64,000 bases of DNA from Anadara kagoshimensis (lineage: Eukaryota; Mollusca; Bivalvia; Arcoida; Arcidae), in assembly GCA_021292105.1 (NCBI GenBank), contig CM037868.1, positions 33,808,523 to 33,872,522 of the forward strand. Direction: 5' to 3'. Made by a program: the position numbers and the translations under genes. Positions 4,286 to 53,604 of the stretch are shown here, piece after piece (the first letter of the stretch is position 1; each line of letters opens with the position of its first letter). The notes beneath the pieces are model-generated. The model made no database searches. It saw nothing but the letters and a program-made list of their open reading frames with translations, and was not told the origin of the DNA.

Positions 4286-5187
4286 CCATTAATGTCCTGC
4301 TCTTTTTCCCTTCTAAAAAGAATTATTTATAACGAAAAACGGTTTCGAATACAAATACTTGATATGTTGATTCGATGACTCTCAACCAAAAGTTTAAAAT
4401 TTGAAAATTCCATAATGATCTTACTTTACAATGAGAGTGTACATACAGTGTGATGTTTTGTATCTAACATTAGACTAGTTTTTTCTGTCTGTATTTGGTG
4501 AAATACAAGTTTTATCAAACACGCGTAATACAGAATGTTGTATCACCACAGTGTGGTGATACAACACTGGCGCTAAAGTACACGTGCACTTCTTACTGTG
4601 ACGCCATTTGGGAATCTTCGTTTCGTCAAATGTAAACAATGACGTCATTACTACAAAGCATGTCATAACATAGTTCAGTGGTTTTCTGTGATAAAATGTA
4701 TTTTTTCACATAAAGTATTGGGTTTTTATCATTTTAATGACCTAATAGGAAATGTTAAAAAAATATCATATACACAGTGTGTATATAATATGTAATATGT
4801 ATTTTTAAAAGCTTTATGAATTTAAGTGTAAGAATTCAGGTTAACTACTGATGAAGAATTTTATCTTACAATTAATATGAATTTTGCTATAATACATTCA
4901 TTTTTAATGTGATACAAGGGTATCTGATACCAAAGGATGCGTGCGTTTGTTTGCGGACTTCTGCAGATCCTGTAATGACGTTATCAGATTGGAATGTAAC
5001 GTAAACAAAGATCAGGGATTTCCCCTAGATTCAGTCGTGTCAAGACAAATGAAAGCAGTTGAAAACTACGATAAATCATAAAAAATGTCCATTTTTATCC
5101 GAAAATAAAACGGTAAAATGTAATTATTGGCAACATAATTGCCTTTGATAAAATTTCATAACAAAAAGAAAATGTAATGCAATTTTA
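4286..5187. other. Intronic sequence with a perfect hairpin
   Basis: No gene seen. A palindrome at 4536-4549 and 4553-4566 (14-bp perfect arms, GTTGTATCACCAC, 3-nt loop) could be a small foldback. The remainder is AT-rich without recognised repeats. Confidence 0.55.
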
Positions 5188-5589: not shown

Positions 5590-7130
5590 TCTCCAACATT
5601 CCGAACAATCGGGACTGTGATTTAGACATAAATTTGTATGTTTGTTTTTCCTTTGCATCAGGACTGTGATTTAGACATAAATTTGTATGTTTGTTTTTCC
5701 TTTGCATCAGGACTGTGGTTTAGACATAAATTTGTATGTTTGTTTTTCCTTTGCATCAGGACTGTGATTTGGACATGGATTTGTATGTTTGTTTTTCCTT
5801 TGCATCAGGACTGTGATTTAGACATAAATTTGTATGTTTGTTTTTACTTTGCATCAGGACTGTGATTTGGACATAACTTGGACATGGATTGGTATGTTTC
5901 TTTTTACATTGGGATTGTGATTTGGAAATTGTTTGCTTGTTTTTTCTTTGCCTAAGGGCTGTGATTTGGACATAAATTAGTATGTTTGTTTTCCTTTGTA
6001 TCAGGACTGTGATTTAGACATAAATTTGTATGTTTGTTTTCCTTTGTATCAGGACTGTGATTTAGACATAAATTTGTATGTTTGTTTTTCCTTTGCATCA
6101 GGACTGTGATTTGAACATGGATTTGTATGTTTGTTTTTCTTTTCATCAGGACTCTGATTTAAACATAAATTTGTATGTTTGTTTTTACTTTGCATCAGGA
6201 CTGTGATTTGGACATAATTTGGACATGGATTGGTATGTTTCTTTTTACATTGGGATTGTGATTTGGAAATTGTATGCTTGTTTTTTCTTTGCCTCAGGGC
6301 TGTAATTTGGACATAAATTTGTATGTTTGTTTTCCTTTGTATCAGGACTGTGATTTGGACATAGATTTGTATGTTTGTTTTCCTATTATCAGGACCGTGA
6401 TTTGGACATAAATTAGTATGTTTGTTTTCCTTTGTACCAGGACTGTGATTTGGACATAAATTTGTATGTTTCTTTTTACTTTGCATCAGGACTGTGATTT
6501 GGACATACATTAGTATGTTTGTTTTTCTATGCATCAGGACTGTGATTTGGACATAATTTGGACATGGATTGGTATGTTTGTTTTTACTTTGCATTAGGTC
6601 TGTGATTTAATTATAAACTTGTATGTTTGTTTTTACTTTGCATCAGGACTGTGATTTGGACATACATTAGTATGTTTGTTTTTTCTTTGCATCAGGACTG
6701 TGATTTGGACATAATTTGGACATGGGTTGGTATGTTTCTTTTTACTTTGTACCAGGACTCTGATTTAAACATAAATTTGTATGTTTGTTTTTACTTTGCA
6801 TCAGGACTGTGATTTGGACATAAATTTGTATGTTTGTTTTTTCTTTGCATCAGGACTGTGATTTGAACATGGATTAGTATGTTTGTTTTCCTTTGTATCA
6901 GGACTGAGATTTGGACATTAATTTGTATGTTTGTTTTCCTTTGTATCAGGACCGTGATTTGGACATAAATTAGTATGTTTGTTTTCCTTTGCATCAGGAC
7001 TGTGATTTGGACATAAATGTGTATGTTTGTTTTTACTTTGCATCAGGACTGTGATTTAAACATACATTAGTCTGTTTGTTTTTTCTTTGCATAAGGACTG
7101 TGATTTGGACATAATTTGGACATGGATTGG
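5590..7130. repeat. 48-49-bp minisatellite, segment 1
   Basis: About 30 diverged units of the type GCATCAGGACTGTGATTTGG, ACATAAATTTGTATGTTTG, TTTTCCTTT. Some units are longer because GACATAATTTGGACATGG is partly duplicated. The unit core matches the 3' end of the PLE family (GGATTGTGATTCGGACATGG then ATTAGTATGTTTGTTTTT). It is one of four segments of a single array split by three insertions. Confidence 0.92.
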
Positions 7131-7150
7131 TTAGGGTTAGGGTTAGGGTT
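7131..7150 (+). repeat. Interstitial telomere-type repeat (TTAGGG)3
   Basis: Three exact TTAGGG units plus TT lie exactly at the left junction between the minisatellite (ending ATTGG) and the first 338-bp unit. TTAGGG is the usual telomere repeat of molluscs and vertebrates. Confidence 0.9.
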
Positions 7151-7181
7151 AAAATAATTTTGGTTTCATAAATTTGGTCCA

Positions 7182-7227
7182 AGCACTACTGATGAGGAAT
7201 TGTATTCCGAAACGGCCGTCTAGTGCT
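7182..7227 (+). ncRNA. Type-I hammerhead ribozyme (first of 13 intact copies)
   Basis: Stem I AGCACTA (7182-7188) pairs with TAGTGCT (7221-7227), 7 bp. Core CTGATGA is 7189-7195. Stem II is GGAAT/ATTCC with loop TGT (7196-7208). Core GAAA starts at 7209. Stem III is ACGG/CCGT (7212-7219), a very short palindrome. Cleavage is predicted after GTC at 7220. All conserved core bases are present. The same motif, flanked by one extra base each side, lies at 7519-7566, 7857-7904, 8194-8241, 8532-8579, 8870-8917, 9208-9255, 9546-9593, 9884-9931, 10219-10266, 10555-10602, 10892-10939 and 11230-11277. A short self-complementary stem III is typical of animal hammerheads that work best as dimers. Confidence 0.93.
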
Positions 7228-10200
7228 GAAAAATTAAAACTGGTATAATATGTAATTTAAACCCCTGAGCCGATATCTCTGCTGGTGGCTGGTGCCCCGA
7301 GGATATAACCAACTCAGTAGGCAATAATTTCGTATTATTGTCAGAAATATACTATAATTGTCTAAATTTCCTGCAAGTTAAAGTTTGAAATTTCTCAAAA
7401 ACTAAGGCATACTCCCTCATGCAAATTATGTCCTTAGCTTAATTTGGTAAAATATATTTTGGTCCTTTGGGTAGCTTTTCAACATCTTAAAATAATTTTG
7501 GTTTCATAAATTTGGTCCAAGCACTACTGATGAGGAATTGTATTCCGAAACGGCCGTCTAGTGCTGAAAAATTAAAACTGGTATAATATGTAATTTAAAC
7601 CCCTGAGCCGATATCTCTGCTGGTGGCTGGTGCCCCGAGGATATCACCAACTCAGTAGGCAATAATTTCGTATTATTGTCAGAAATATACTATAATTGTC
7701 TAAATTTCCTGCAAGTTAAAGTTTGAAATTTCTCAAAAACTAAGGCATACTCCCTCATGCAAAGTATGTCCTTAGCTTAATTTGGTAAAATATATTTTGG
7801 TCCTTTGGGTAGCTTTTCAACATCTTAAAATAATTTTGGTTTCATAAATTTGGTCCAAGCACTACTGATGAGGAATTGTATTCCGAAACGGCCGTCTAGT
7901 GCTGAAAAATTAAAACTGGTATAATATGTAATTTAAACCCCTGAGCCGATATCTCTGCTGGTGGCTGGTGCCCCGAGGATATCACCAACTCAGTAGGCAA
8001 TAATTTCGTATTATTGTCAGAAATATACTATAATTGTCTAAATTTCCTGCAAGTTAAAGTTTGAAATTTCTCAAAAACTAAGGCATACTCCCTCATGCAA
8101 AGTATGTCCTTAGCTTAATTTGGTAAAATATATTTTGGTCCTTTGGGTAGCTTTTCAACATCTTAAATAATTTTGGTTTCATAAATTTGGTCCAAGCACT
8201 ACTGATGAGGAATTGTATTCCGAAACGGCCGTCTAGTGCTGAAAAATTAAAACTGGTATAATATGTAATTTAAACCCCTGAGCCGATATCTCTGCTGGTG
8301 GCTGGTGCCCCGAGGATATCACCAACTCAGTAGGCAATAAGTTCGTATTATTGTCAGAAATATACTATAATTGTCTAAATTTCCTGCAAGTTAAAGTTTG
8401 AAATTTCTCAAAAACTAAGGCATACTCCCTCATGCAAAGTATGTCCTTAGCTTAATTTGGTAAAATATATTTTGGTCCTTTGGGTAGCTTTTCAACATCT
8501 TAAAATAATTTTAGTTTCATAAATTTGGTCCAAGCACTACTGATGAGGAATTGTATTCCGAAACGGCCGTCTAGTGCTGAAAAATTAAAACTGGTATAAT
8601 ATGTAATTTAAACCCCTGAGCCGATATCTCTGCTGGTGGCTGGTGCCCCGAGGATATCACCAACTCAGTAGGCAATAATTTCGTATTATTGTCAGAAATA
8701 TACTATAATTGTCTAAATTTCCTGCAAGTTAAAGTTTGAAATTTCTCAAAAACTAAGGCATACTCCCTCATGCAAAGTATGTCCTTAGCTTAATTTGGTA
8801 AAATATATTTTGGTCCTTTGGGTAGCTTTTCAACATCTTAAAATAATTTTGGTTTCATAAATTTGGTCCAAGCACTACTGATGAGGAATTGTATTCCGAA
8901 ACGGCCGTCTAGTGCTGAAAAATTAAAACTGGTATAATATGTAATTTAAACCCCTCAGCCGATATCTCTGCTGGTGGCTGGTGCCCCGAGGATATCACCA
9001 ACTCAGTAGGCAATAATTTCGTATTATTGTCAGAAATATACTATAATTGTCTAAATTTCCTGCAAGTTAAAGTTTGAAATTTCTCAAAAACTAAGGCATA
9101 CTCCCTCATGCAAAGTATGTCCTTAGCTTAATTTGGTAAAATATATTTTGGTCCTTTGGGTAGCTTTTCAACATCTTAAAATAATTTTGGTTTCATAAAT
9201 TTGGTCCAAGCACTACTGATGAGGAATTGTATTCCGAAACGGCCGTCTAGTGCTGAAAAATTAAAACTGGTATAATATGTAATTTAAACCCCTCAGCCGA
9301 TATCTCTGCTGGTGGCTGGTGCCCCGAGGATATCACCAACTCAGTAGGCAATAATTTCGTATTATTGTCAGAAATATACTATAATTGTCTAAATTTCCTG
9401 CAAGTTAAAGTTTGAAATTTCTCAAAAACTAAGGCATACTCCCTCATGCAAAGTATGTCCTTAGCTTAATTTGGTAAAATATATTTTGGTCCTTTGGGTA
9501 GCTTTTCAACATCTTAAAATAATTTTGGTTTCATAAATTTGGTCCAAGCACTACTGATGAGGAATTGTATTCCGAAACGGCCGTCTAGTGCTGAAAAATT
9601 AAAACTGGTATAATATGTAATTTAAACCCCTCAGCCGATATCTCTGCTGGTGGCTGGTGCCCCGAGGATATCACCAACTCAGTAGGCAATAATTTCGTAT
9701 TATTGTCAGAAATATACTATAATTGTCTAAATTTCCTGCAAGTTAAAGTTTGAAATTTCTCAAAAACTAAGGCATACTCCCTCATGCAAAGTATGTCCTT
9801 AGCTTAATTTGGTAAAATATATTTTGGTCCTTTGGGTAGCTTTTCAACATCTTAAAATAATTTTGGTTTCATAAATTTGGTCCAAGCACTACTGATGAGG
9901 AATTGTATTCCGAAACGGCCGTCTAGTGCTGAAAAATTAAAACTGGTATAATATGTAATTTAAACCCCTGAGCCGATATCTCTGCTGGTGGCTGGTGCCC
10001 CGAGGATATCACCAACTCATAGGCAATTTTCGTATTATTGTCAGAAATATACTATAATTGTCTAAATTTCCTGCAAGTTAAAGTTTGAAATTTCTCAAAA
10101 ACTAAGGCATACTCCCTCATGCAAAGTATGTCCTTAGCTTAATTTGGTAAAATATATTTTGGTCCTTTGGGTAGCTTTTCAACATCTTAAAATAATTTTG

Positions 10201-11308
10201 GTTTCATAAATTTGGTCCAAGCACTACTGATGAGGAATTGTATTCCGAAACGGCCGTCTAGTGCTGAAAATTAAAACTGGTATAATATGTAATTTAAACC
10301 CCTGAGCCGATATCTCTGCTGGTGGCTGGTGCCCCGAGGATATCACCAACTCAGTAGGCAATAATTTCGTATTATTGTCAGAAATATCTATAATTGTCTA
10401 AATTTCCTGCAAGTTAAAGTTTGAAATTTCTCAAAAACTAAGGCATACTCCCTCATGCAAAGTATGTCCTTAGCTTAATTTGGTAAAATATATTTTGGTC
10501 CTTTGGGTAGCTTTTCAACATCTTAAAATAATTTTGGTTTCATAAATTTGGTCCAAGCACTACTGATGAGGAATTGTATTCCGAAACGGCCGTCTAGTGC
10601 TGAAAATTAAAACTGGTATAATATGTAATTTAAACCCCTGAGCCGATATCTCTGCTGGTGGCTGGTGCCCCGAGGATATCACCAACTCAGTAGGCAATAA
10701 TTTCGTATTATTGTCAGAAATATACTATAATTGTCTAAATTTCCTGCAAGTTAAAGTTTGAAATTTCTCAAAAACTAAGGCATACTCCCTCATGCAAAGT
10801 ATGTCCTTAGCTTAATTTGGTAAAATATATTTTGGTCCTTTGGGCAGCTTTTCAACATCTTAAAATAATTTTGGTTTCATAAATTTGGTCCAAGCACTAC
10901 TGATGAGGAATTGTATTCCGAAACGGCCGTCTAGTGCTGAAAAATTAAAACTGGTATAATATGTAATTTAAACCCCTGAGCCGATATCTCTGCTGGTGGC
11001 TGGTGCCCCGAGGATATCACCAACTCAGTAGGCAATAAGTTCGTATTATTGTCAGAAATATACTATAATTGTCTAAATTTCCTGCAAGTTAAAGTTTGAA
11101 ATTTCTCAAAAACTAAGGCATACTCCCTCATGCAAAGTATGTCCTTAGCTTAATTTGGTAAAATATATTTTGGTCCTTTGGGTAGCTTTTCAACATCTTA
11201 AAATAATTTTGGTTTCATAAATTTGGTCCAAGCACTACTGATGAGGAATTGTATTCCGAAACGGCCGTCTAGTGCTAAAAAATTAAAACTGGTATAATAT
11301 GTAATTGG

Positions 11309-12611
11309 TATGTTTCTTTTACTTTGTATCAGGACTGTGATTTAGACATAAATTTGTATGTTTGTTTTTACTTTGCATCAGGACTGTGATTTGGACATGG
11401 ATTAGTATGTTTGTTTTTCCTTTGCATCAGGACTGTGATTTGGACATAAATTTTTATGTTTGTTTTTCCTTTGCATCAGGACTGTGATTTGGACATAAAT
11501 GTGTATGTTTGTTTTCCTTTTCATCAAGATTGTGATTTGGACATAAATTTGTATGTTTGTTTTCCTTTGCATCAGAATTGTGATTTGAACATAAATTTGT
11601 ATGTTTGTTTTCCTTTTCATCAAGATTGTGATTTGGACATAAATTTGTATGTTTGTTTTCCTTTGCATCAGAATTGTGATTTGAACATAAATTTGTATGT
11701 TTGTTTTCCTTTTCATCAAGATTGTGATTTGGACATTAATTTGTATGTTTGTTTTCCTTTGCATCAGAATTGTGATTTGAACATAAATTTGTATGTTTGT
11801 TTTCCTTTTCATCAAGATTGTGATTTGGACATAAATTTGTATGTTTGTTTTCCTTTGCATCAGAATTGTGATTTGAACATAAATTTGTATGTTTGTTTTT
11901 CCTTTGCATCAGAATTGTGATTTGGACATAAATTTGTATGTTTGTTTTCCTTTGCATCAGAATTGTGATTTGGACACAAATTTGTATGTTTGTTTTCCTT
12001 TTCATCAAGATTGTGATTTGGACATAAATGTGTATGTTTGTTTTCCTTTGCATCAGAATTGTGATTTGAACATAAATTTGTATGTTTGTTTTTCCTTTGC
12101 ATCAGGTATGTTATTTGGACATAAATTTGTATGTTTGTTTTCCTTTGCATCAGAATTGTGATTTGGACATAAATTTGTATGTTTGTTTTCCTTTTCATCA
12201 AGATTGTGATTTGGACATAAATTTGTATGTTTGTTTTCCCTTGCATCAGGACTTTGATTTGGACATACATTTGTATGTTTGTTTTTCCTTTGCATCAGGA
12301 CTGTGATTTGGACATAAATTTGTATGTTTGTTTTTCCTTTGCATCAGAATTGTGATTTGAACATAAATTTGTATGTTTGTTTTCCTTTTCATCAAGATTG
12401 TGATTTGGACATGGATTAGCATGTTTGTTTTTCCTTTGCATTAGGACTGTGATTTCGACATAAATTTGTATGTTTGTTTTCCCTGTACACCAGGACTGTG
12501 ATTTGGACATAAATTTGTATGTTTGTTTTTCCTTTGCATCAGGACTGTGATTTGGACATGGATTAGCATGTTTGTTTTTCCTTTGCATCAGGACTGTGAT
12601 TTGGACATAAA
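11309..12611. repeat. 48-49-bp minisatellite, segment 2, with dimeric higher-order units
   Basis: About 27 units. Between about 11515 and 11880 two unit types alternate (CATCAAGATTGTGATTTGG and CATCAGAATTGTGATTTGA), a roughly 97-bp higher-order repeat showing recent amplification by pairs. Because 48 is divisible by three, both strands stay open for over 450 nt (repeating FVFPLHQDCDLDIN-type peptides). These are not genes. Confidence 0.92.
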
Positions 12612-15600: not shown

Positions 15601-16161
15601 TTTAAACAGTTATTTATAAATGCATAAAATTTTATCGATTCCGTTTTGTTAAAATATATGTAATCAACAAAAATCACAAATATATTTTAACTTTTTTGCT
15701 TATTATAACAGAAAGAACATATAAGTAAATGTTCACTTTAGCCACATTGTGCTACACAATTTACCTTACCCCATACTTCCCGACTTTAGTGGACAATTTT
15801 ATTGACGATTTTTTTCAAATTAAACTATGAGCGCAGTCGTGCTCCACAACAATATTTTAACACGTGGTTCTTTTATTCAACATTAGTTTATAGTTTAAAT
15901 ATCTTTTTGGAGCACGACTGCGCTCATAGTTTAATTTGAAGAAATGTACCGGAAAAATGTCAATATTTCGAAAAATAGGACAAACACCCAGTACTTTAGT
16001 GATACATGACGACAGTTTAAAATATTTTGTGTGTAAAACTTTTATGGATTTATTTTATTTGTATAATTGGAAATGTGTTCGGTAACATATCAAAGATATT
16101 TCCCCCTTCAAAAAATAATTAAAATTGTGGTGCCGAGAGGGGCCCATAGCGCACAACCTCC
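12612..16161. mobile_element. 3.55-kb TIR element inserted between AAA and TTT, Spy-like
   Basis: Left end GGAGGTTGTGCACTATAGGC and right end (reverse complement) GGAGGTTGTGCGCTATGGGC are terminal inverted repeats of about 21 bp with two mismatches. The flanks are ACATAAA on the left and TTTGTATG on the right. Joining them restores the minisatellite unit exactly, so there is no target-site duplication. Insertion precisely between AAA and TTT without duplication is the signature described for the Spy group of DNA transposons. No transposase was recognised inside; the frames of 60-85 codons have no known motifs, so it is probably non-autonomous. It contains AT-rich DNA with GCAACG/CATAGCAAC repeats near 12900-13070, and a perfect hairpin at 15815-15939. 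Confidence 0.75.
15815..15939. repeat. Perfect 31-bp inverted repeat (hairpin)
   Basis: Arms 15815-15845 and 15909-15939 are exact reverse complements (core GAGCGCAGTCGTGCTCC) around a 63-bp loop. It looks like a small nested foldback or MITE inside the Spy-like element. Confidence 0.85.
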
Positions 16162-16432
16162 TTTGTATGTTTGTTTTTCCTTTGCATCAGAATTGTGATT
16201 TGGACATGGATTAGCATGTTTGATTTTCTTTGCATCAGGGCTGTGATTTGGACATGGATGAGTATGTTTGTTTTTTCTTTGCTTCAGGGCTGTGATTTGG
16301 ACATGAATGAGTATGTTTGTTTTTTCTTTGCTTCAGGACTGTGATTTGGACATAAATTTGTATGTTTGTTTTCCTTTGCATCAGGACTCTGATTTAGACA
16401 TAAATTTGTATGTTTGTTTTTACTTTGCATCG
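16162..16432. repeat. 48-49-bp minisatellite, segment 3
   Basis: Five to six units, continuing in register from segment 2 across the Spy-like insertion and ending in GCATCG, the left target duplication of the next insertion. Confidence 0.9.
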
Positions 16433-16709
16433 TACGATGGTGCATAGGTGACAGCAAACATACACTTTTGAAAAGTGTATAGTTGTATAGGTAAAAGTGT
16501 ATAGAAAACGCTATACACATTTACATTTGTAAAAGTGTATAGTTGTATAGGTAAAAGTGTATTAAAAACGCTATACACATTTACATTTGCAAAAGTGTAT
16601 AGTTGTATAGGTAAAAGTGTATAGAAAAAGCTATACACATTTACATTTGCAAAAGTGTATAGTTGTATAGGTAAAAGTGTATAGAAAAAGCTATACACAT
16701 TTACATTTG
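16433..16709. repeat. Left inverted terminus of 60-bp tandem units
   Basis: Units of exactly 60 bp (phase points 16501, 16561, 16621, 16681) with GGTAAAAGTGTATAGAAAA and CTATACACATTTACATTTG. Each holds small palindromes. The same units appear inverted at 25361-25691. Confidence 0.93.
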
Positions 16710-16728
16710 AAAATTCTCTATTGGATTG

Positions 16729-21757: not shown

Positions 21758-21937
21758 TATATTGTAATGGATAAAATGCGAACTAGGAGTAAATGTTAAT
21801 TACACGGTAAGGGGTTGTTAAGCCCCGTGAGTATGACAGTAAAATATACATTTTCATATACTTGTCGAAATTGAATAAATTAATACAAGAATGAAGTTCT
21901 ACCCTTTCTCTTTCTCTCTCTCTCTTCGTGTGCATTT

Positions 21938-23549
21938 GGAACTGCGATTGATTAGCATACTTGGGAAAGTCTTTGAAAGATGTGTCCTTAAATATCTTAA
22001 CAACTATTTACTACATAATCACATATTGACCCCTTTTCAATCTGGTTTTGTCCATGGCGATTCTACTATTAACCAACTTTCATACCTAACCAATCAAATA
22101 TTTCAAGCCTTAGATGATGGCAAAGAAGTCCGTGCAGTATTTTTAGATATTAGTAAGGCTTTTGATAGAGTCTGGCACAAGGGCTTATTGCTTAAACTTA
22201 AAAGTATTGGTATATCCGGTTCTGTACTTTCCTGGTTCTGCAGTTACTTATCAAATAGAAATCAAAGAGTTGTTATCAAAAATTCTTCTTCTAATTGGAA
22301 ATCTATTTCTGCTGGTGTTCCCCAAGGTTCTATACTTGGTCCTTATCTATTTCTCATATACATAAATGACATTGTTAATAGTATCACGTGTAATATTAGA
22401 CTCTTTGCCGATGATACTTCCCTATATGTTATTGTTGAAAATCCAAGATCTGCCAGTATTTCTCTTTCCCATAGTATTGATGCTATTTATTCATGGTCTC
22501 AAAGATGGTTAGTTGACTTTAATCCTAATAAAACAGAATGTATGACCTTTTCAAAAAGAAGAAATATCCAACATCCACCATTATATATGAATAATATTCT
22601 GTTCAAAGAAGTTTTCACTCACAAACATCTAGGGATAACCTTTTCATCTGATGGCTCTTGGTCTTCCCACATAGATTTTATATTAGGTAAAGCTCGATCT
22701 CGACTTTCTTTACTGCGCCTTTTAAAATTCAAGCTAGATAGGAATACTTTACAAAAACTCTATTTTACATTGATCAGACCCATTTTGGAATACGGAGATG
22801 TCCTATGGGATAATACTACATTGTTTTATAGTAATTCGCTTGAAAAAATCAATTTGGAAGCAGCCCGCATCGTTACCGGTGCCACACAACTAACTAGTAC
22901 TTCACTTCTCTTAAAAGAATCAGGCTGGGAAACACTAAGTGACAGACGTAAAAAACACAAACTTATTCTATTTTATAAGATGTATCACAATATGACCCCT
23001 GACTATCTTTCTAATTTAGTACCCTCTCACAATTTTGAAACCCATTCGTACAATACACGACAACAGAATAATCTCGTACACATCTCTTCTAAAACCAAAC
23101 ATTATTTCGACTCATTTTTACCCTCTGTTGTTAGAGATTGGAATGAAATTCCAGAGGAAATAAGAAACTCCTCTTTATATAGGTTTAAATCATATCTAAA
23201 TAGAAATAAGTTAAATATTCCAAAGTTTTTTGCCAAAGGCAGTCGATTGGGACAAATTCTTCACGCACGCCTAAGAATGAATTGCAGTTCGCTAAATAGT
23301 CATCTGTCCCAGAAAATGATAATTGATTCCCCCAACTGTCTCTGTGGTAATACTGAAACCACCAAACACTATATATTTGATTGCCCAAATTTTAATCGAC
23401 AAAGAACTGAACTATATAATTCCTTAAACCACCAAAATTTTAATTTAAATACTCTTTTGTACGGTAATCCAAACTTATCTGATGTTGAAAACACAGAAAT
23501 CTTTTTAAAATTTCAAAAATTTATCATTGATACTAGAAGATTTAAATAA
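21938..23549 (+). CDS. LINE (non-LTR) reverse transcriptase, 5'-truncated
   Basis: Open frame of 552 codons, of which homology starts near residue 17. The N-terminal MKFYPFSFSLSL part comes from a CT-rich flank, so the ATG at 21891 is accidental. Visible RT blocks: RLISILGKVFERCVLKYL, FQSGFVHGDSTINQL, AVFLDISKAFDRVWH (catalytic Asp), SAGVPQGSILGPYLFLIYIN, RLFADDTSLYV (catalytic FADD) and HKHLGITFSSDGSW. After the RT comes a thumb/C-terminal region (ALNEI-like SVVRDWNEIPEEI) and a zinc motif CLCGNTETTKHYIFDC. The order is typical of Jockey/CR1-group LINEs. The endonuclease and ORF1 are missing, as in most 5'-truncated insertions. The frame is uninterrupted, so the insertion is young. It is nested in the foldback element and lies opposite to the host gene. 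Confidence 0.94.
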
Positions 23550-25360
23550 ATTGATGTTATTTTTCAGAATTTATTTTTACAAGCCATTAGTAATAATTTT
23601 AATTAATATTTATCATCTTTACAACAATTTAAAGATCTTTTTTCCAATCCATTTATTTTCTTTCATTACATAAGTGCATATCATTGCATTATTATCTGTA
23701 TTGATTATTATCATCTACATTATTATTTATATTGATTATTATCTATTGTCGGTCTTACTATTTGTAATTTATTATTCTTGGAGACGGATTAATATAATGG
23801 TATTTAACCATTGTTTCCGAATCCATATATATTTATAATTATGTATGTTATTGTATAACAATTTAGTGAATAAAATACTGTTTACACTAACTGAGATACC
23901 CAGTATTCAATCTGTTAACTTATCCAAATGTTGTTATTATATCACATCTTGTTTTTTTTTAAAATATCCAAGGTTTGAACAATAAATTCATAACCTCAAT
24001 ACTTTTATGCATTAGAGCATAACATGATGCAGATTGTTTTGTTTATCAGAAACCTGGCCAACTCTTGTTAAGGTTTAACCAAATGTACACATGTATATAA
24101 AGACAAAAAACAGGGCTATAATTATAGTTTGTGTAGTTTATATATAATTAGCAATAATTCGAACTACATCAGAATATAACATAATTTTTCTTCTGCTAGA
24201 TAAATTTAACTCGATTCACAGCTAACATGAAAAGTAGTAAATGGTGCAATCTTTGGATAAAATTGGTGATAAAAGAAAAACAGCTAACTTGTCTATGGGT
24301 CTTTTCATTCGTATTTCATATTCCCTCCAGAAGATGAATCAGTATGGTCTTAAATATTGCATTTGAACTTGTTTCATTAAAGATTTAAATGCCATAAAGA
24401 ATGGATAGTCAGGTCAACAATGGAAAATCGCAGTTACAATTTGTGCAAGTTTACAACTTTCAAATTCTGAGTGGTCATACTTTAGGGAACATCTATGGCA
24501 TTTCACTTGTTATAAATTATGGTTTAAATTTATTTTTGTGACAATTGTCCATTAAAATGAATTATTGAAATCTACAGATACATGTAATACTTCAAAATTG
24601 GAGCATTTATCCAATCATACTTGCAAAAATTAATCTACAAACGTAAATCTTATAAATTTACGAAATTAGAAACTTCTTCATTTTTGAAATCCATCTCAAT
24701 ATTCTGTTGCAAAATCATCATTGATGGCTTTATTCAACATTGCTTTCGAAGGAGTAAACTTGGCCGACTCCCTAAAATATTAAAAAGGCTAAGGTGTTAC
24801 CTCATTTGCAATTTGAGTATGTTTTAAATACAGTAATCTCCCTATAATTTATCACAGGAAAATATCACTTTCATAAAACATATATAACATAAAACTAAGA
24901 TACATGTAATTGGAAGAAATTACCGGATAAATAAAAGACATGCACACAGAATTTTATTACTCCAAAGATTTATCTTATTGATAATAGTATTTTTGATTTT
25001 CTTGTTTATTTCTAACATCTCATCAGTGCTTCAGTACTTTGATTTTCTGTTGAGAAAAATTGATTAAATCAATTGTATAATCTTGTTACAGATAAATGTA
25101 GCTTATTGAAGTTTAAAACTGGCCCTTTCTGTGTAAATCAAATCTGATGTTTTAATTGGGAGATGACCCAATGGTCTTTTAATTGTCCTGAAGGTTGGTA
25201 AAAAAGAATTAATTTAAGTAGTATGAAATGAACATTTCTCCGCCCCTTTTTGAGATTCCGGACTTGTCTATTTAAAGTGTATTTCTCATTTACCCAATGA
25301 GCCGTAAATTACTGGTGACCTAGAAATAAATATGAATGGTGGATTCTAAAAGCTAAAAAG
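23550..25360 (+). other. LINE 3' UTR and AT-rich unique sequence
   Basis: ATAAAATACTG at about 23871 may serve as the LINE poly(A) signal; the LINE probably ends near 23890. The remainder has no recognised gene; the 68-codon frame at 24621-24827 has no motif. Confidence 0.5.
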
Positions 25361-25691
25361 TAAATGTGTATAGCTTTTTCTATACATTTTTACTTATACA
25401 ACTATACACTTTTACAAATGTAAATGTGTATAGCGTTTTTAATACACTTTTACCTATACAACTATACACTTTTGCAAATGTAAATGTGTATAGCTTTTTC
25501 TATACACTTTTACCTATACAACTATACACTTTTGCAAATGTAAATGTGTATAGCGTTTTTAATACACTTTTACCTATACAACTATACACTTTTGCAAATG
25601 TAAATGTGTATAGCGTTTTTAATACACTTTTACCTATACAACTATACACTTTTCAAAAGTGTATGTTTGCTGTCACCTATGCACCATCGTA
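25361..25691. repeat. Right inverted terminus of 60-bp tandem units
   Basis: About five 60-bp units, the reverse complement of 16433-16709, ending TGTCACCTATGCACCATCGT A. Half-palindromes such as CTATACACTTTT and AAAAGTGTATAG recur. Confidence 0.93.
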
Positions 25692-25697
25692 GCATCG

Positions 25698-26035
25698 GGA
25701 CTGTGATTTGGACATAAATTTGTATGTTTGTTTTCCTTTGCATCAGGACTGTGATTTGGACATGAATTTGTGTGTTTGTTTTTACTTTGCATCAGAACTG
25801 TGATTTGGACATACATTTGTATGTTTGTTTTCTTTTGCATCAGGACTGTGATTTGGACATACATTTGTATGTTTGTTTTTCTTTGCATCAGGACTGTGAT
25901 TTAGACATAATTTGGGCATGGATTTGTATGTTTCTTTTTACATTGTGATTGTGATTTGGAAATTGTATATATATTTTTCCTTTGCATGAGAACTGTGATT
26001 TGAACATGGATTAGTATGTTTGTTTGTTGTTGTTT
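25698..26035. repeat. 48-49-bp minisatellite, segment 4
   Basis: About six units, the last reading AACTGTGATTTGAACATGG then ATTAGTATGTTTG. It stops 37 bp from the donor of exon 9, so the array abuts the exon. Confidence 0.9.
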
Positions 26036-28374: not shown

Positions 28375-28490
28375 ATTTCCTTATTTCAACATCTTAAAAC
28401 ATTTCAATTTCGACAATTGTAGTTCGAACGCTACTAATGATGTAATATATCCCGAAACTGTCGTATAGTACTGCAAAATTAAAAAAAGTT
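28375..28490 (+). mobile_element. Solo hammerhead relic downstream of a PLE end
   Basis: TTTCAACATCTTAAAACATT, then CGCTACTAATGATGTAATAT, CCCGAAACTGTCGTATAGTA. The core is changed (CTAATGATG), so it should be inactive. It follows the PLE 3' region by about 25 bp. Confidence 0.65.
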
Positions 28491-28494
28491 TAGC

Positions 28495-29127: not shown

Positions 29128-29341
29128 AAGTTAAAGCTAAAAAAACTAAGGTATACTCCCTCATGCAAAGTATTTCCTCAGTTTAATTTGGTAAAATATA
29201 TTTTGGTCCTTTTGTTAGCTTTTCAACATCTTCAAAATAATTTTCGTTTCAGAATTTTGGTCCAAGCACTACTGATGAGGAATTGTATTCCGACAAAGTC
29301 GTCTAGTGCTGTTAAATTAAAACTGGTATAATATGTAATTT
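29128..29341 (+). mobile_element. Solo retrozyme-type copy with near-complete hammerhead
   Basis: Matches the 338-bp unit from AACTAAGG to its 3' end ATATGTAATTT. Stem I (AGCACTA/TAGTGCT), CTGATGA and stem II are intact, but the GAAA core is altered to GACA with a changed stem III (AAGTCGTC), so cleavage should be lost. It ends at exactly the same base as the large array. Confidence 0.85.
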
Positions 29342-33841: not shown

Positions 33842-34019
33842 CTGTAAGTAACATTTTTTACAGTATCAAAAACGGACACACTTATCCATGTTCAAATCAC
33901 AATCCAAAAAAGTAAAATCTTGACAGATAACTCTTTATTTTCCCAATTTTCTTCAATTATTTTTTCTTTGGGATTGTAATTTGTACATGGACCAACATGT
34001 TTCCGTTTGATTATATTAA
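33842..34019. mobile_element. Eroded PLE end scraps
   Basis: CACTTATCCATGTTCAAATC and ACATGGACCAACATG resemble short pieces of the PLE 3' end in both orientations. Weak. Confidence 0.4.
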
Positions 34020-34370
34020 TTTAACCCGTGATAATTTACTAGAACCAGACGACCGTTTTTGAGTACAATTCAGTATTTCTCGGACCAAATAAAAACAAAC
34101 ATATCGATCCCTGTTCAAACCATATTTCCAAAGCAGGAATATTACGTCAATCATGGGAAATTCAGTCAAGCTCATCTGCAAGGATAAGTTCCTGTTTAGC
34201 CAGCTGCACCAGCCACATGTGTCAAAATAGATTATGAATTGAACATGAAACTATCGAATGTATATTGCAATATATTCAGGGTAATACTGGACACCGAGAC
34301 ATCACAATTATCACCAATATTACGGCTAAAAGACTTTTTAAGGGCCTTTGTAAACTCTGACATTAATTAC
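34020..34370 (-). mobile_element. PLE 3' end copy with an adjoining hammerhead relic
   Basis: On the minus strand the PLE blocks (34090-34370) are followed by TACTGAATTGTACTC and AACGGTCGTCTGGTTCT (34030-34075), a decayed hammerhead. The order PLE end then hammerhead repeats that at 28080-28490 and 28905-29341. Confidence 0.6.
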
Positions 34371-35177: not shown

Positions 35178-35318
35178 AGTCAAACCGGTCTAAAAAGCCA
35201 CCTCTGTATAAGAGCCACCTGCTAATAAACGCAAGTAGAGTTGCATTCCGTCTGTTCTTTATTCATTTTCTTTAAACCTGTGTATAAAGGCCACTTTTTC
35301 CGGTACCTTTGGGTGGAC
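35178..35318. mobile_element. MITE of the GTCAAACCTG family
   Basis: Starts AGTCAAACCGGTCTAAAAAG and ends GTGGACT, with the internal GAGCCACCTGC and GTTCTTTATTCAT blocks. Confidence 0.7.
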
Positions 35319-35334
35319 TTTATAGACAATTTTG

Positions 35335-35425
35335 ACTGTGAAAAAATTAGGATTCAACAATTTTGGCAAGAACATTACTTGTTAGGAATTTTATTTCGAG
35401 ACAGTCTAGTGCTGTTAAAAGAAAC
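35335..35425 (+). mobile_element. Solo hammerhead relic, decayed
   Basis: TTAGGAATTTTATTTCGAGA then CAGTCTAGTGCTGTTAAAA aligns with the ribozyme region of the 338-bp unit; the core is broken. Confidence 0.55.
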
Positions 35426-35698: not shown

Positions 35699-35844
35699 AT
35701 GCCAGTACTGCATGAAAAACCATACAATAAAGTCATTATTCATGACAAAATACAATTGCTGTAAGATTATATGACGTCATATGTAAACTGCCCTGGTTTT
35801 TTAGTCATTTTTACTGTTCTTTTTAATTAAATACACATTATGTC

Positions 35845-35990
35845 AATCTTAAATATACAGTTCTAGACAGTTGTTTCAGAACATCGTTCCTCGTCAGTGG
35901 TGATTTGACCAAAATTTTGAAATTACATTTTTTGCAAAGGGGTAGAAAAAACTCTAAAGGACAAAAATATATTTAACCGGAATTAGTGAT
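35845..35990 (-). mobile_element. Solo hammerhead relic with intact core bases
   Basis: Minus strand: CTGACGAGGAACGATGTTCT then GAAACAACTGTC. CTGANGA and GAAA are both present and stem II pairs, but stem I (ending CACCA / TAGAAC) no longer pairs well. Upstream it matches the 338-bp unit (ATATATTTTTGTCCTTT). Confidence 0.7.
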
Positions 35991-38375: not shown

Positions 38376-38426
38376 AAAATAATTTATCTTTTAAACATCA
38401 AGAAACAAATTCTTATTTTACAATTT

Positions 38427-38660
38427 TGGTTCTGACGCCAACCGGATCTGACCCAAGATTTGAAAGAGGGTAGTGGAAGGTTTTTTTTTGCCACCAAAAG
38501 GGCATTATGAAAAGAAAGTTGCGGTTCTTTCGGTTTGGAACTTTGGAATAAACGAAGTTTTGTTTCACGAAGGCGTGGTACGATAAAAAAACCTGCTGTA
38601 CAATGCTATGAGTGCAACGCACAGGTACAATTTCTGTACTTTCCTATTGATAGCAACATA
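38427..38660 (+). mobile_element. SINE, head-truncated and diverged
   Basis: ATCTGACCCAAGATTTGAAA, GGTTCTTTCGG and GTGCAACGCACAGG follow the family order on the plus strand. Confidence 0.7.
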
Positions 38661-41780: not shown

Positions 41781-42665
41781 GTGACAACGTTTTTAAGTTA
41801 GAATTATTTCTCGTTTCCTAGGTCCAGTACAAAGAGACATTTCATCTTTGCCATCAATGACATCACAGCCATTCGACGTGTGACCTTTAACTCCTTTCTC
41901 GTCAGCTCGGTGTAAAACTTTTCGACAGGTCTGTACTGTATTACATGTACATAACAACGTTTCTAAGTTATGATTATTTCTCGCTCCCTAGGTTCAGTAC
42001 AAAGAGACATTTCATCTTTGCCATCAATGACATCACAGCCATTCGACGTGTGACCTTTAACTCCTTTTTCGTCAGCTCGGTGTAAAAACTTTTCGACAAG
42101 GCTGTACTGTATTACATGTACATAACAACGTTTCTAAGTTATGATTATTTCTCGCTCCCTAGGTTCAGTACAAAGAGACATTTCATCTTTGCCATCAATG
42201 ACATCACAGCCATTCGACGTGTGACCTTTAACTCCTTTTTCGTCAGCTCGGTGTAAAAACTTTTTGACATTTTTGTACTGTATTACATGTACATAACAAC
42301 GTTTCTAAGTTAGAATTATTTCTCGTTCCCTTAGTATAATACAAAAGAGACATTTCATCTTTGCCATCAATGACACCACAACCATTCGACGTCGAAGCTT
42401 TGGCTACGTTTCGTCAGCTCGGTGTAAAAACTTTTCGACAGGTCTGTACTGTATTACATGTACATAACAACGTTTCTAAGTTAGAATTATTTCTCGCTCC
42501 CTAGGTTCAGTACAAAGAGACATTTCATCTTTGCCATCAATGACACCACAACCATTCGACGTCGGAGCTTTGACTACGTTTCGTCAGCTCAGTGTAAAAC
42601 TTTTCGACAGGGCTGTACTTCATTACATAATGATTATAGTGTGCATCGCAGCGTTTCTAAGTTAT
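41781..42665. repeat. 171-bp tandem array, about 5 copies
   Basis: Phase points at 41825, 41995, 42166, 42337 and 42508. Each unit has CAAAGAGACATTTCATCTTT, CATTCGACGT, CGTCAGCTCGGTGTAAAA, then the MITE terminus TTTTCGACAGGTCTGTACTG. The units are thus tandem copies of one half of that MITE family. A related unit lies at 44960-45165. Confidence 0.92.
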
Positions 42666-48235: not shown

Positions 48236-49365
48236 TAGACCTGTCGCAAGTTTAACACTGAGCTACAGTACAGACCTGTCGAAAGTTTAACACTGAGCTA
48301 CAGTACAGACCTGTCGAAAGTTTAACACTGAGCTACAGTACAGACCTGTCGAAAGTTTAACACTCAGCTACAGTACAGACCTGTCGCAAGTTTAACACTG
48401 AGCTAGAGTACATACCTGTCGAAAGTTTAACACTGAGTTACAGTACAGACCTGTCGAAAGTTTAACACTGAGCTACAGTACAGACCTGTCGCAAGTTTAA
48501 CACTGAGCTACAGTACAGACCTGTCGAAAGTTTAACACTCAGCTACAGTACAGACCTGTCGCAAGTTTAACACTGAGCTACAGTACAGACCTGTCGAAAG
48601 TTTAACACTGACCTACAGTACAGACCTGTCGAAAGTTTAACACTGAGTTACAGCGCAGACCTTTTGAAAGTTTAACACTAAGCTACAGTGCAGACCTGTT
48701 GCAAGTTTAAAACTAAGCTACAGTACAGACCTGTCGAAAGTTTAACACTTAGCTACAGTACAGACCTGTCGAAAGTTTAACACTAAGCTAGATTAACACT
48801 TAGCTACAGTACAGACCTGTCGAAAGTTTAACACTAAGCTACAGTGCAGACCTGTTGCTAGTTTAACACTAAGCTACAGTACATACCTGTCGCAAGTTTA
48901 ACACTCAGCTACAGTACAGACCTGTCGCAAGTTTAACACTGAGTTACAGTACAGACCTGTTGAAAGTTTAACACTGAGTTACAGTACAGACCTGTCGCAA
49001 GTTTAACACTGAGTTACAGTACAGACCTGTTGAAAGTTTAACACTGAGCTACAGTGCAGACCTGTCGCAAGTTTAACACTGAGTTACAGTACAGACCTGT
49101 TGAAAGTTTAACACTGAGTTACAGTACAGACCTGTCGAAAGTTTAACACTGAGCTACAGTGCAGACCTGTTGCTAGTTTAACACTAAGCTACAGTACATA
49201 CCTGTCGCAAGTTTAACACTCAGCTACAATACAGACCTGTCGAAAGTTTAACACTGAGTTACAGTACAGACCTGTTGAAAGTTTAACACTGAGCTACAGT
49301 GCAGACCTGTCGCAAGTTTAACACTGAGTTACAGTACAGACCTGTCGAAAGTTTAACACTGAGTC
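48236..49365. repeat. 35-bp minisatellite made of a MITE terminus, about 32 copies
   Basis: Unit CAGTACAGACCTGTCGAAAG plus TTTAACACTGAGCTA. Variant positions (GAAAG/GCAAG, GAGCTA/GAGTTA/CAGCTA/AAGCTA, CAGTACAG/CAGTGCAG) recur in blocks, indicating segmental duplication inside the array. The unit equals the TIR of the MITEs at 21574-21757 and elsewhere. Confidence 0.95.
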
Positions 49366-49582: not shown

Positions 49583-49857
49583 CGGCCAAACCGGGACCCG
49601 AACCTGGAACCTTCCCAATACTAGCAAGACGCTCTACCTACTGAGCTACCAGGCTTACTTATCGAGTCCGTTCCACCACATTCCTTCCTTTTTTCCATTC
49701 AGCTCCCTTGAATCGAAACCACCAGGTTCCACCTTTGGATGTACCTGTTGATCGACCACTTCGATGGTTAAAAATGTTACAGGAAAAGGGGAAATTCAGC
49801 GGCCAAACCCGGGACCGTCCCAATACTAGCGGAACGCTCTACGCACTGGGCTACCCC
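49583..49857 (-). mobile_element. Two copies of a tRNA-like SINE head
   Basis: 49583-49656 on the minus strand has GCCTGGTAGCTCAGTAGGTA and GGTTCGGGTCCCGG (A and B boxes). 49786-49857 is a second, more damaged copy ending in a C16 run. Both follow a GAAAAGGGGAAA-like sequence, so the whole unit was duplicated. Confidence 0.65.
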
Positions 49858-50744: not shown

Positions 50745-51085
50745 GAGTTGAGTTGAGTAATGGTGTTTAACGTCCCAGTCAAGAATTTTTCACTTATATC
50801 GAGACGTCGCCAGCTATAGGCGAATGTGCAGAAATTTTGCCTGTGCGTTGCGCTGATGGCATTATACAGCAGAATTCTTTATCGTGCCAAGCCTACCAAG
50901 ACACGGGGCCTCATTTATTTTAAGTTCCCATCTGAAAGAACCGTAACTTTCATTTTGTAATGCTGAGTGCTTGGCGAAAGAACAGTCACTACCCACTTTC
51001 AAGTCTTTGGTCAGACCCGGCCGGGTTTCGAACCCACGACCTCCCACTTACGGAGCGAGCACTCTACCAACTGAGCTACCGCAGT
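50745..51085 (-). mobile_element. Full-length tRNA-headed SINE
   Basis: Tail GAGTTGAGTTGAGTAATGGT to head ACCAACTGAGCTACCGCAGT. About 335 bp and complete; a good reference copy with 60674-61014. Confidence 0.93.
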
Positions 51086-53573: not shown

Positions 53574-53589
53574 ACTAATATACAAACGA

Positions 53590-53604
53590 ATGAAATGGAT
53601 TTAG
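53590..53604 (+). promoter_or_regulatory. Five-codon upstream frame overlapping the KLHL start
   Basis: ATGAAATGGATTTAG starts 5 bases before the main ATG in another frame and overlaps it. Its own context is weak (C at -3, A at +4), whereas the main ATG has G at -3 and G at +4, so leaky scanning should favour the main start. Confidence 0.55.

Follow-up and report, generated by a model that had tools for sequence, protein, structure and literature searches.

How can a repeat that encodes no enzyme of its own, and carries a hammerhead ribozyme, be copied into new places in an animal genome? The question is raised by a locus of the bivalve Anadara kagoshimensis that lies in a 64,000-nt stretch of contig CM037868.1 (the window, to which all coordinates refer). 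Type I hammerheads in small tandem repeats that give rise to circular RNA have been described in mussel, coral and axolotl, and similar repeats are found in other animals (PMC7229834). The Anadara array is of this already known kind, the metazoan non-LTR retrozyme, as that class is set out in the cited sections of the same paper. Two points about the class bear on the locus. A review of metazoan retrozyme repeats, in the part cited here, finds no conserved motif that points to their autonomous mobilising retrotransposon (PMC7761336), and the 2020 retrozyme paper suggests that something besides self-pairing must block the ribozyme in circles (PMC7229834). The most informative parts of the locus, which went unnoticed in the original prediction, are telomeric repeats at one junction, the empty insertion site, and dispersed truncated relatives, with three loci that have a common 3′ end. 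The insertion junctions and the broken relatives give a hint of how such elements may insert new copies elsewhere.

Hammerhead ribozymes of the 338-bp array

Tandem Repeats Finder delimits the array at 7149-11306, with 99% matches between copies. The exact core CTGATGA-GGAAT-TGT-ATTCC-GAA-ACGGCCGT-C occurs in it 13 times, and stem I is AGCACTA / TAGTGCT in 13/13 copies.

7149..11306, forward strand: tandem array of the 338-bp retrozyme unit, 12.3 copies, consensus 35.2% G+C
7182..7227, forward strand: hammerhead 1, core start 7189, predicted cut after 7220
7520..7565, forward strand: hammerhead 2, core start 7527, predicted cut after 7558, Rfam Hammerhead_1 28.1 bits
7858..7903, forward strand: hammerhead 3, core start 7865, predicted cut after 7896, Rfam Hammerhead_1 28.1 bits
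8195..8240, forward strand: hammerhead 4, core start 8202
8533..8578, forward strand: hammerhead 5, core start 8540
8871..8916, forward strand: hammerhead 6, core start 8878
9209..9254, forward strand: hammerhead 7, core start 9216
9547..9592, forward strand: hammerhead 8, core start 9554
9885..9930, forward strand: hammerhead 9, core start 9892
10220..10265, forward strand: hammerhead 10, core start 10227
10556..10601, forward strand: hammerhead 11, core start 10563
10893..10938, forward strand: hammerhead 12, core start 10900
11231..11276, forward strand: hammerhead 13, the last, core start 11238, with a further 30 nt of unit up to 11306

Thus the repeat finder and the pattern search both bear out what had been claimed of this DNA, namely 13 hammerheads in a 338-bp tandem array with the type I core intact in every copy. 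The span given at that time, 7131 to 11303, needs correction at its start, as 7131-7148 is (TTAGGG)3 and lies outside the unit; the 3′ end of the array is at 11306, or indeed at 11303 if a final ATT is counted as target.

A general hammerhead pattern has 14 matches in the window, the 13 of the array and an unrelated one on the other strand (24980-25026). Dinucleotide shuffles (n = 100) gave a mean of 0.35 matches and a maximum of 3, and a chance origin of the motif was therefore rejected. The Rfam hammerhead models, which the original prediction had named as a check, match at 28.1 bits with Hammerhead_1 (E 1.2e-5 with an 81-base query, 5.6e-5 with a 366-base query). This is under the gathering score of 34, so that no hammerhead is reported at the gathering threshold. 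It should be noted that the Hammerhead_1 consensus likewise has a loopless 4-bp stem III. With a 4,350-base query and E up to 10 the hammerhead was missed, probably by loss in the search filter. A RAGATH-1-hammerhead row (15.5 bits, E 1.2) represents the same motif in a related family. No second ribozyme was found in the unit by Rfam besides a sub-threshold RAGATH-6 row; this row and those for JPX, a snoRNA, CLRN1-AS1 and mir-84 are far under their gathering scores and are taken as chance. The exact 32-base core has 0 matches in viral contigs and 0 in prokaryotic contigs, and phage records gave no match, as is expected of an animal element.

The repeat length of 338 bp lies within the range of the retrozyme class (about 150-450 bp) and the G+C content is below its limit (<45-50%). 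No stop-to-stop open reading frame of at least 110 aa is present inside the array, and a Pol III B box is absent from the unit with two mismatches allowed. Unit length, G+C content and the lack of a 110-aa reading frame fit the animal retrozymes described in the cited sections of PMC7229834. The earlier view of a retrozyme-like element is thus supported by the 13 cores, the near-identical 338-bp units, the Rfam match and the existence of a published class. Protein similarity places the host among the bivalves.

Stem III and the predicted double hammerhead

Stem III is the palindrome ACGGCCGT. Within one copy no more than 2 bp can close it, around a GGCC loop, whereas 8 bp can form between two copies. 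The short stem III originally described holds for a single copy, but the palindrome and its pairing across two copies had been overlooked. In structure modeling the favoured form is predicted to be a dimer, the double hammerhead, and a lone copy is predicted to misfold. The minimum free energy (MFE) of the free dimer, -36.7 kcal/mol, belongs to the double-hammerhead structure; that of the monomer, -13.4 kcal/mol, belongs to a misfold with paired core bases, and the hammerhead-shaped monomer is at -8.9. For the first adjacent pair in cis, the unconstrained MFE equals that of the constrained double hammerhead (-86.2), and two monomeric hammerheads give -68.6. The mean pairing probability of stem III is 0.952-0.954 in 12/12 adjacent pairs. 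Shuffled octamers reached a stem III probability of 0.9 in 5 of 100 cases (10 of the 100 shuffles are palindromic), and the energy gain of the dimer is unexceptional by itself, as 33/300 octamer shuffles equal it. Pairing is weaker in the inner stem I of the double hammerhead (probability 0.213-0.913), and in the circular monomer stems I and II have probabilities of about 0.1. A hammerhead that favours the dimer, if it behaves as modeled, would be a simple answer to the question of the blocked ribozyme in circles.

An unusual stability of the unit as a whole was rejected both for the linear form (z -1.18) and for the circle (z -0.89; 17/100 shuffles as low).

The insertion site

The array interrupts a minisatellite, and the features of the two junctions are as follows.

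5608..7130, forward strand: 49-bp minisatellite, left part, interrupted by the array
7126..7131, forward strand: possible target-site duplication ATTGGT, left copy, from comparison with the empty units at 5880, 6221, 6560 and 6718
7131..7148, forward strand: (TTAGGG)3 telomeric repeats at the 5′ junction
11304..11309, forward strand: possible target-site duplication, right copy; ATT (11304-11306) is perhaps the 3′ end of the unit instead
11307..12611, forward strand: 48/49-bp minisatellite, right part

The empty site is kept in four neighbouring minisatellite units, as GGACATGGATTGGTATG at 5880, 6221 and 6560 and as GGACATGGGTTGGTATG at 6718. The (TTAGGG)3 sequence sits exactly between the target and the first base of the unit and is absent from the four paralogous empty sites. 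No other stretch of two telomeric repeats was found in the window, also with one mismatch allowed. The target-site duplication is 2 to 6 bp long, with junction bases at both ends that can be assigned to either side (in the class it is >4 bp when present). A 3-nt microhomology is found at each junction and is weak.

The telomeric repeats tie the event to a telomerase-type activity, weakly and by a single example. They may also be unrelated to it, if an interstitial telomeric microsatellite was there already and the array either inserted into it or was placed next to it in the assembly. Short telomeric stretches inserted at repaired breaks are described in primates and rodents (PMC2246262), and this lends the alternative some weight; however, the repeats stand precisely at the join of target and unit, and the four empty paralogues have none, so that an unrelated origin appears rather unlikely.

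Dispersed relatives and a 3′ end common to three loci

Six 5′-truncated relatives of the unit are present in the window. Their 3′ ends are given as nucleotides past the ribozyme cut site.

29141..29341, forward strand: relative A, 5′-truncated single copy, 93% in a 153-bp part and 95% in a 38-bp part, 3′ end at +38, GAC in place of the core GAA
26957..27021, reverse strand: relative E, its 5′ truncation within the ribozyme core, 87%, 3′ end at +37
35827..35985, reverse strand: relative C, decayed, 72%, end between +36 and +40
28384..28493, forward strand: relative B, decayed, end between +19 and +28
34007..34097, reverse strand: relative D, decayed, end between +29 and +40
35336..35419, forward strand: relative G, decayed, family profile E 2.5e-8, ends at about +18

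Important is the agreement among the array and the two relatives most similar to it, A and E: their 3′ ends are at +37, +38 and +37, and their 5′ ends differ. By post hoc arithmetic, the chance for two more ends to lie no further than 1 nt from the first, with 338 positions available, is about 8e-5; the common end has three loci as its basis, and the detection of relatives is biased toward the ribozyme region. The older relatives B, C, D and G have 3′ ends anywhere from +18 to +40. With a single-sequence profile the alignment of A continues to +53, although identity visibly ends at +38, and G is found at 35300-35424 (E 5.6e-5). A reversed decoy profile found no copies. Profile rows at 29766-29710 (E 0.0036), 38386-38440 (0.035) and 4819-4864 (0.27), and two weaker ones, were omitted from the six. 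At relatives A and B no hammerhead was found by Rfam with E up to 1, which fits their damaged cores, and by eye no clear target-site duplication is present at A or E. An enrichment of insertions in the 49-bp minisatellite was also considered and rejected; only the array is clearly inside it, and the flanks of A and D resemble it by eye but gave no profile match.

The common 3′ end suggests a single internal start of reverse transcription, on RNA that is circular or has been left uncut, comparable to what is described for a Penelope-like element (PMC11167929). This reading bears on the mobilisation of animal retrozymes: if true genome-wide, the +37/+38 end with variable 5′ truncation would be a testable start site for the question of the mobilising retrotransposon.

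Relatives A to G could instead be what is left of an autonomous Penelope-like element that had the hammerhead and a 37-nt tail in its terminal repeat, and the 338-bp unit could be an internally deleted derivative that kept the tail recognised by the enzyme. Consistent with this, nothing in the window convincingly matches unit positions from about +54 to +156; the ribozyme region is present in all six relatives, whose 3′ ends range from +18 to +40; and Penelope-like elements are reported to have minimal type I hammerheads and to co-occur with retrozymes (PMC7229834, PMC7761336). Yet 5′ truncation alone explains the missing part, and no Penelope-like gene is found among the 19 reading frames described below, so that a relic origin is judged rather improbable.

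The copying enzyme

All 19 stop-to-stop reading frames of at least 110 aa in the window (19/19) were compared with Pfam, and none is a Penelope-like reverse transcriptase or GIY-YIG gene, in a search that shorter gene pieces would escape. The single reverse transcriptase found among them (21879-23546) is LINE-like, and its solved relatives include R2 retrotransposon proteins. Pfam rows for Fibrinogen_BP and DUF5027, under their cut-offs and in readings of the minisatellite, are taken as chance.

An enzyme of the LINE type, for example of the kind encoded at 21879-23546, might copy retrozyme RNA, with the common 3′ end as its start. A LINE-like reverse transcriptase is encoded inside the window, and LINE copies, too, typically share a 3′ end and vary at the 5′ end. 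Repeats in Nematostella are reported with 15-bp duplications like those of LINE insertions, which speak for LINE enzymes in that animal (PMC4918200). Against a LINE enzyme here, the duplication at the array is at most 6 bp, and the putative start is inside the RNA beside the hammerhead, as in the Penelope-like element of the anole (PMC11167929); a LINE enzyme is therefore considered a doubtful candidate. In the anole element the reverse transcriptase begins at an internal position beyond the point where the hammerhead cuts, and most frequently does so once an ATT has been cleaved; unprocessed RNA is the dominant template and RNA ends at the cut site were unseen (PMC11167929), which favours oligomers over circles as templates.

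Variation among units and a proposed cycle

Measured from cut to cut, the array has 12 complete units of 335-338 bp, and pairs of them differ in a mean of 2.5 alignment columns (maximum 5). Variable columns number 12/338, and 9 of the 12 are private to a single unit. Units 6-8 share a variant at position 47, units 10-11 one at position 9, and units 4 and 12 one at position 108. Several differences are short deletions, some within A runs. Selection on the ribozyme cannot be read from the intact cores and was rejected, as 12 variable columns placed at random would all fall outside the 55 ribozyme positions with P about 0.11.

The sharing of the variants at 47 and 108 argues against an origin of the array from one circle copied 12 times. 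A single insertion of a monomer or short oligomer could have been followed by unequal crossing-over, as in satellite DNA, with the hammerhead as a passenger, and two of the three shared variants (47 and 9) are indeed in neighbouring units, as local duplication would give. But the 9/12 private columns and the 2.5 differences per pair point to fast amplification, and the dispersed single copies, two with the 3′ end of the array, suggest RNA mobility; growth as a mere satellite is hence rather unlikely. An artefact of assembly, in which a repeat was collapsed or expanded, is a very improbable source of the array in view of its clean joins to the minisatellite on both flanks and the differently aged relatives elsewhere in the window, even though the short deletions, some in A runs, resemble long-read errors and the copy number could still be wrong.

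On balance, the array is probably a non-autonomous metazoan retrozyme of a bivalve that was mobilised as follows. In a read-through transcript of several units, neighbouring hammerheads would pair via the self-complementary octamer ACGGCCGU into a double hammerhead, which would cut after GUC and give 338-nt monomers. A host ligase would close these into circles, and a lone circle is predicted to be poor at cutting itself again. A reverse transcriptase acting in trans, most likely Penelope-like, would nick the target (GG-ATT-GGT in the minisatellite), and the cDNA would begin at one site about 37 nt past the cut site; its template would be RNA continuous through that cut site, either as a circle or as an oligomer left uncut. 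The enzyme would often halt in the first unit and leave 5′-truncated single copies; the 12.3 units may have been made by reverse transcription, by template switching or by later growth of the array. Before the other end was closed, three telomeric repeats would have been added, for which telomerase working at the free ...TTGG 3′ terminus is a possible source.

More tentative is an extension to animal retrozymes in general. In these a Penelope-type enzyme might start at a single place about 37 nt past the cut, on joined RNA, the dimer-favouring hammerhead might act as a one-way gate by which oligomers are cut and circles stay closed, and either telomerase or this telomerase-like enzyme itself might finish the free end of the target, with TTAGGG left behind at the 5′ junction.

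Comparison with known systems

By description, the retrozymes of Mytilus galloprovincialis (350-390 bp) are alike in their type I hammerhead, small tandem repeats, low G+C, lack of a long reading frame and mollusc host (PMC7229834). The Anadara locus differs in its explicit insertion site with telomeric repeats and in its 5′-truncated relatives, two of which share the 3′ end; neither is part of the Mytilus description in the sections cited (PMC7229834). The dimeric hammerheads of axolotl and newt also have a weak stem III, of 1-2 pairs and a tetraloop (palindromic in HHR_Amex1), and their dimers cleave better in vitro, whereas the Anadara array is in an invertebrate and its dependence on the dimer is predicted from modeling (PMC7229834).

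Penelope-like elements share a minimal type I hammerhead, a tandem arrangement and ATT at the target, and they have an internal start of reverse transcription downstream of the cut, as is proposed for the Anadara unit (PMC11167929; PMC7761336). They carry a telomerase-like reverse transcriptase and usually a GIY-YIG endonuclease, and the 338-bp unit has no gene for either. The start site, putatively at +37 in the Anadara unit, is further downstream in the anole element, where it is not homologous to the cut DNA; the ATT of Anadara could be (PMC11167929).

The terminons of bdelloid rotifers are similar in having hammerheads, head-to-tail arrays, and copies 5′-truncated by short telomeric repeats (PMC6431247). 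As described in the cited part of that source, they have reverse-complement telomeric repeats after the 3′ hammerhead and are at chromosome ends; no such repeats are found just after the last Anadara hammerhead, and the only telomeric repeats of the window are the TTAGGG of the 5′ junction, inside a minisatellite. Where breaks were repaired with interstitial telomeric sequences, TTAGGG is likewise in register with the 3′ end of the target, here ...TTGG (PMC2246262). In the cited part of that description no retroelement array accompanies them, whereas the telomeric repeats of Anadara stand beside one.

Hammerhead array

7149-11306, + strand, 338-bp tandem array of retrozyme units

Thirteen identical hammerhead cores are found on the + strand of the array, from 7189 to 11269. 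A general hammerhead pattern matches the window 14 times, i.e., at the 13 array cores and at one unrelated site, and a mean of 0.35 times in 100 shuffles. Thus the original prediction of 13 hammerheads in a 338-bp tandem array is confirmed. The further claim that all copies keep every core base is correct in that no ribozyme position varies, but it provides no signal of selection. Measured from cut to cut, the 12 units span 335-338 bp, with 2.5 columns different per pair, and since their alignment has only 12 variable columns (chance that all miss the ribozyme, P about 0.11), the invariant ribozyme is uninformative on selection.

Rfam at the gathering threshold reports no hammerheads in the window, nor are they found when the 4,350 bases at 7051-11400 are searched with E up to 10. 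With short inputs, a full-length match to RF00163 (type I hammerhead) is found at 28.1 bits, below the gathering value of 34, with E-values of 1.2e-5 (81 bases) and 5.6e-5 (366 bases). Rfam search filters may conceal short ribozymes in long inputs (4,350 vs 81 bases). The RF00163 consensus stem III is loopless with four pairs, the same as here.

Of the 12 variable columns, nine vary in a single unit each. Shared variants are at position 47 (units 6-8), position 108 (units 4 and 12) and, within a run of A, position 9 (units 10-11). Shared variants are not expected if one circle was copied twelve times; they would be expected from templates switching between circles, from copying of an uncut oligomer, or from local duplication at a later stage.

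Dispersed relatives and a 3′ end common to three loci

A search of the window with the array masked returned single, 5′-truncated copies (A to E), and a family profile built from the unit and these copies added G.

29141-29341, relative A, 93% over 153 bp and 95% over 38 bp
28384-28493, relative B
35985-35827, relative C
34097-34007, relative D
27021-26957, relative E, 87%
35336-35419, relative G, E 2.5e-8

The family profile also gave a marginal match (29766-29710, E 0.0036) plus some weaker hits. A single-sequence profile with E up to 5 recovered the six relatives A to E and G, together with a seventh match, 29838-29713 (E 0.056); the search with a reversed decoy gave zero. The ribozyme region is present in all six clear relatives, and is damaged or truncated in A, B, C and E, and likewise, by alignment, in D and G.

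Numbered downstream of the predicted cut site (after GTC), the 3′ ends are at +37 in the array, +38 in A and +37 in E, with differing flanks. In A the profile alignment extends to +53, yet identity is lost at +38. The four older relatives (B, C, D, G) end less precisely, at +18 to +40, and apart from the array itself nothing in the window convincingly matches unit positions from about +54 to +156. A single 3′ end combined with variable 5′ ends is characteristic of target-primed reverse transcription. Since every copy spans the cut site, the template would be a circle or an uncut oligomer, and not a cut linear monomer.

Insertion site

5608-7118 and 11303-12611, 49-bp minisatellite interrupted by the array

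Minisatellite units at 5880, 6221 and 6560 display the empty site GGACATGGATTGGTATGTTT without insert, and the unit at 6718, also without insert, reads GGACATGGGTTGGTATG. At the filled site, the 5′ junction is ...GGACATGGATTGG, followed by TTAGGG TTAGGG TTAGGG and the unit sequence TTAAAATAA; at the 3′ junction the array ends in ...TATAATATGTAATT, followed by GGTATGTTTC. The target-site duplication could be as short as GG or as long as ATTGGT, because ATT may be the unit end and T may belong to the telomeric repeat.

No further telomeric stretch of two repeats is found in the window, even allowing one mismatch. TTAGGG continues the target end ...TTGG in register, and such a register is described as a sign used for telomerase action at mammalian breaks (PMC2246262). 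The in-register end thus fits telomerase action at the 5′ junction, but one example cannot establish it.

The 49-bp minisatellite is found again at 16161-16713 and 25356-26025, adjoining a 60-bp tandem repeat rich in CTATACAC/GTGTATAG. Between the two loci the minisatellite strand is the same and the 60-bp repeat with a shared linker is inverted, as if these were parts of one mobile element.

Ribozyme fold and predicted dimer

All fold figures are predicted from thermodynamics and take neither tertiary contacts nor kinetics into account. There are 7 pairs in stem I and 5 in stem II, which has a UGU loop. The self-complementary octamer ACGGCCGU makes up stem III and forms at best two pairs and a GGCC tetraloop within one copy, and eight pairs between two copies. 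A single ribozyme has its energy minimum (-13.4 kcal/mol) in a non-hammerhead fold with paired core bases, compared with -8.9 for the hammerhead shape. Two copies folded freely give the double hammerhead at -36.7 kcal/mol. For the first adjacent pair in cis the free minimum is also the double hammerhead (-86.2, same as constrained), with two monomeric hammerheads at -68.6.

In all 12 adjacent pairs, stem III pairs with a mean probability of 0.952-0.954, the outer stem I with 0.967-0.968 and the inner one with 0.213-0.913. Stem III pairing of at least 0.9 is kept in 44 of 50 shuffles of the spacer of one pair, and is found in 5 of 100 octamer shuffles, a set of 100 that includes 10 palindromes. 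The dimerisation energy gain alone is equalled by 33 of 300 octamer shuffles, which counts against the dimer reading. In a circular monomer, stems I and II form with a probability of about 0.1.

In one account of related ribozymes, axolotl hammerheads whose stem III is similar show weak cleavage as monomers and improved cleavage as dimers, and a cloned mussel repeat cuts at about 0.1 per minute (PMC7229834). Because of these, weak monomer cleavage by the array hammerheads is possible.

Other features of the window

53574-55328, kelch-like (BTB-BACK-Kelch) stop-to-stop ORF, 585 codons, without introns
21879-23546, reverse transcriptase (RT) ORF, 556 aa, Pfam RVT_1, R2/LINE-like
41784-42628, 171-bp tandem repeat, 5 copies, 92%
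48237-49363, 35-bp tandem repeat, about 16 copies in each of two neighbouring arrays
49583-49655 and 51018-51081, - strand, tRNA-like Rfam matches, close together

For the kelch-like ORF, 183 relatives have E-values of 0.001 or lower; the best, at 93%, is an unnamed protein (source 'lgn'). Among the matches listed (120 of 183) the best named are Pinctada imbricata (62%) and Pecten maximus (57%), and these relatives support a bivalve origin. ARAGORN calls only 49583-49655 (-) of the two tRNA-like matches, as tRNA-Thr(agt).

Pfam on all 19 stop-to-stop ORFs of at least 110 aa in the window detects one RT only and no GIY-YIG domain. Five solved sequences match the RT ORF with E-values of 0.001 or lower, namely three R2 retrotransposon proteins and two labelled just as reverse transcriptase-like protein. 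Among the 120 matches listed for this ORF, four are labelled Candidatus Thiodiazotropha MAGs, and are probably host clam sequence binned with a symbiont.

Comparison with known mobile elements

The array is a real retrozyme array of a bivalve and belongs to an already known kind. The part worth following is the insertion anatomy, with a candidate fixed point at which reverse transcription begins, a telomeric junction, and a ribozyme predicted to be dimer-gated.

Penelope-like elements are named as candidate retrozyme movers (PMC7229834; PMC7761336). As one review puts it, retrozyme repeats hold no motif that would reveal Penelope-like mobilisation (PMC7761336). Nematostella repeats, as described in one study, have 15-bp, LINE-like duplications, which speak against a Penelope link (PMC4918200). 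In Terminons, rotifer relatives of Penelope, most copies are described as 5′-truncated by short telomeric repeats (PMC6431247).

In an anole Penelope-like element, reverse transcription begins within the RNA, at a point downstream of where the hammerhead cuts and mostly after cleavage at ATT, and this internal start accounts for the genomic tail (PMC11167929). Its main template was found to be unprocessed RNA, and RNA termini at the cut site were not seen (PMC11167929), which favours an oligomer template over a circle. In outline, the array has the same arrangement as the anole element, including the ATT at the target.
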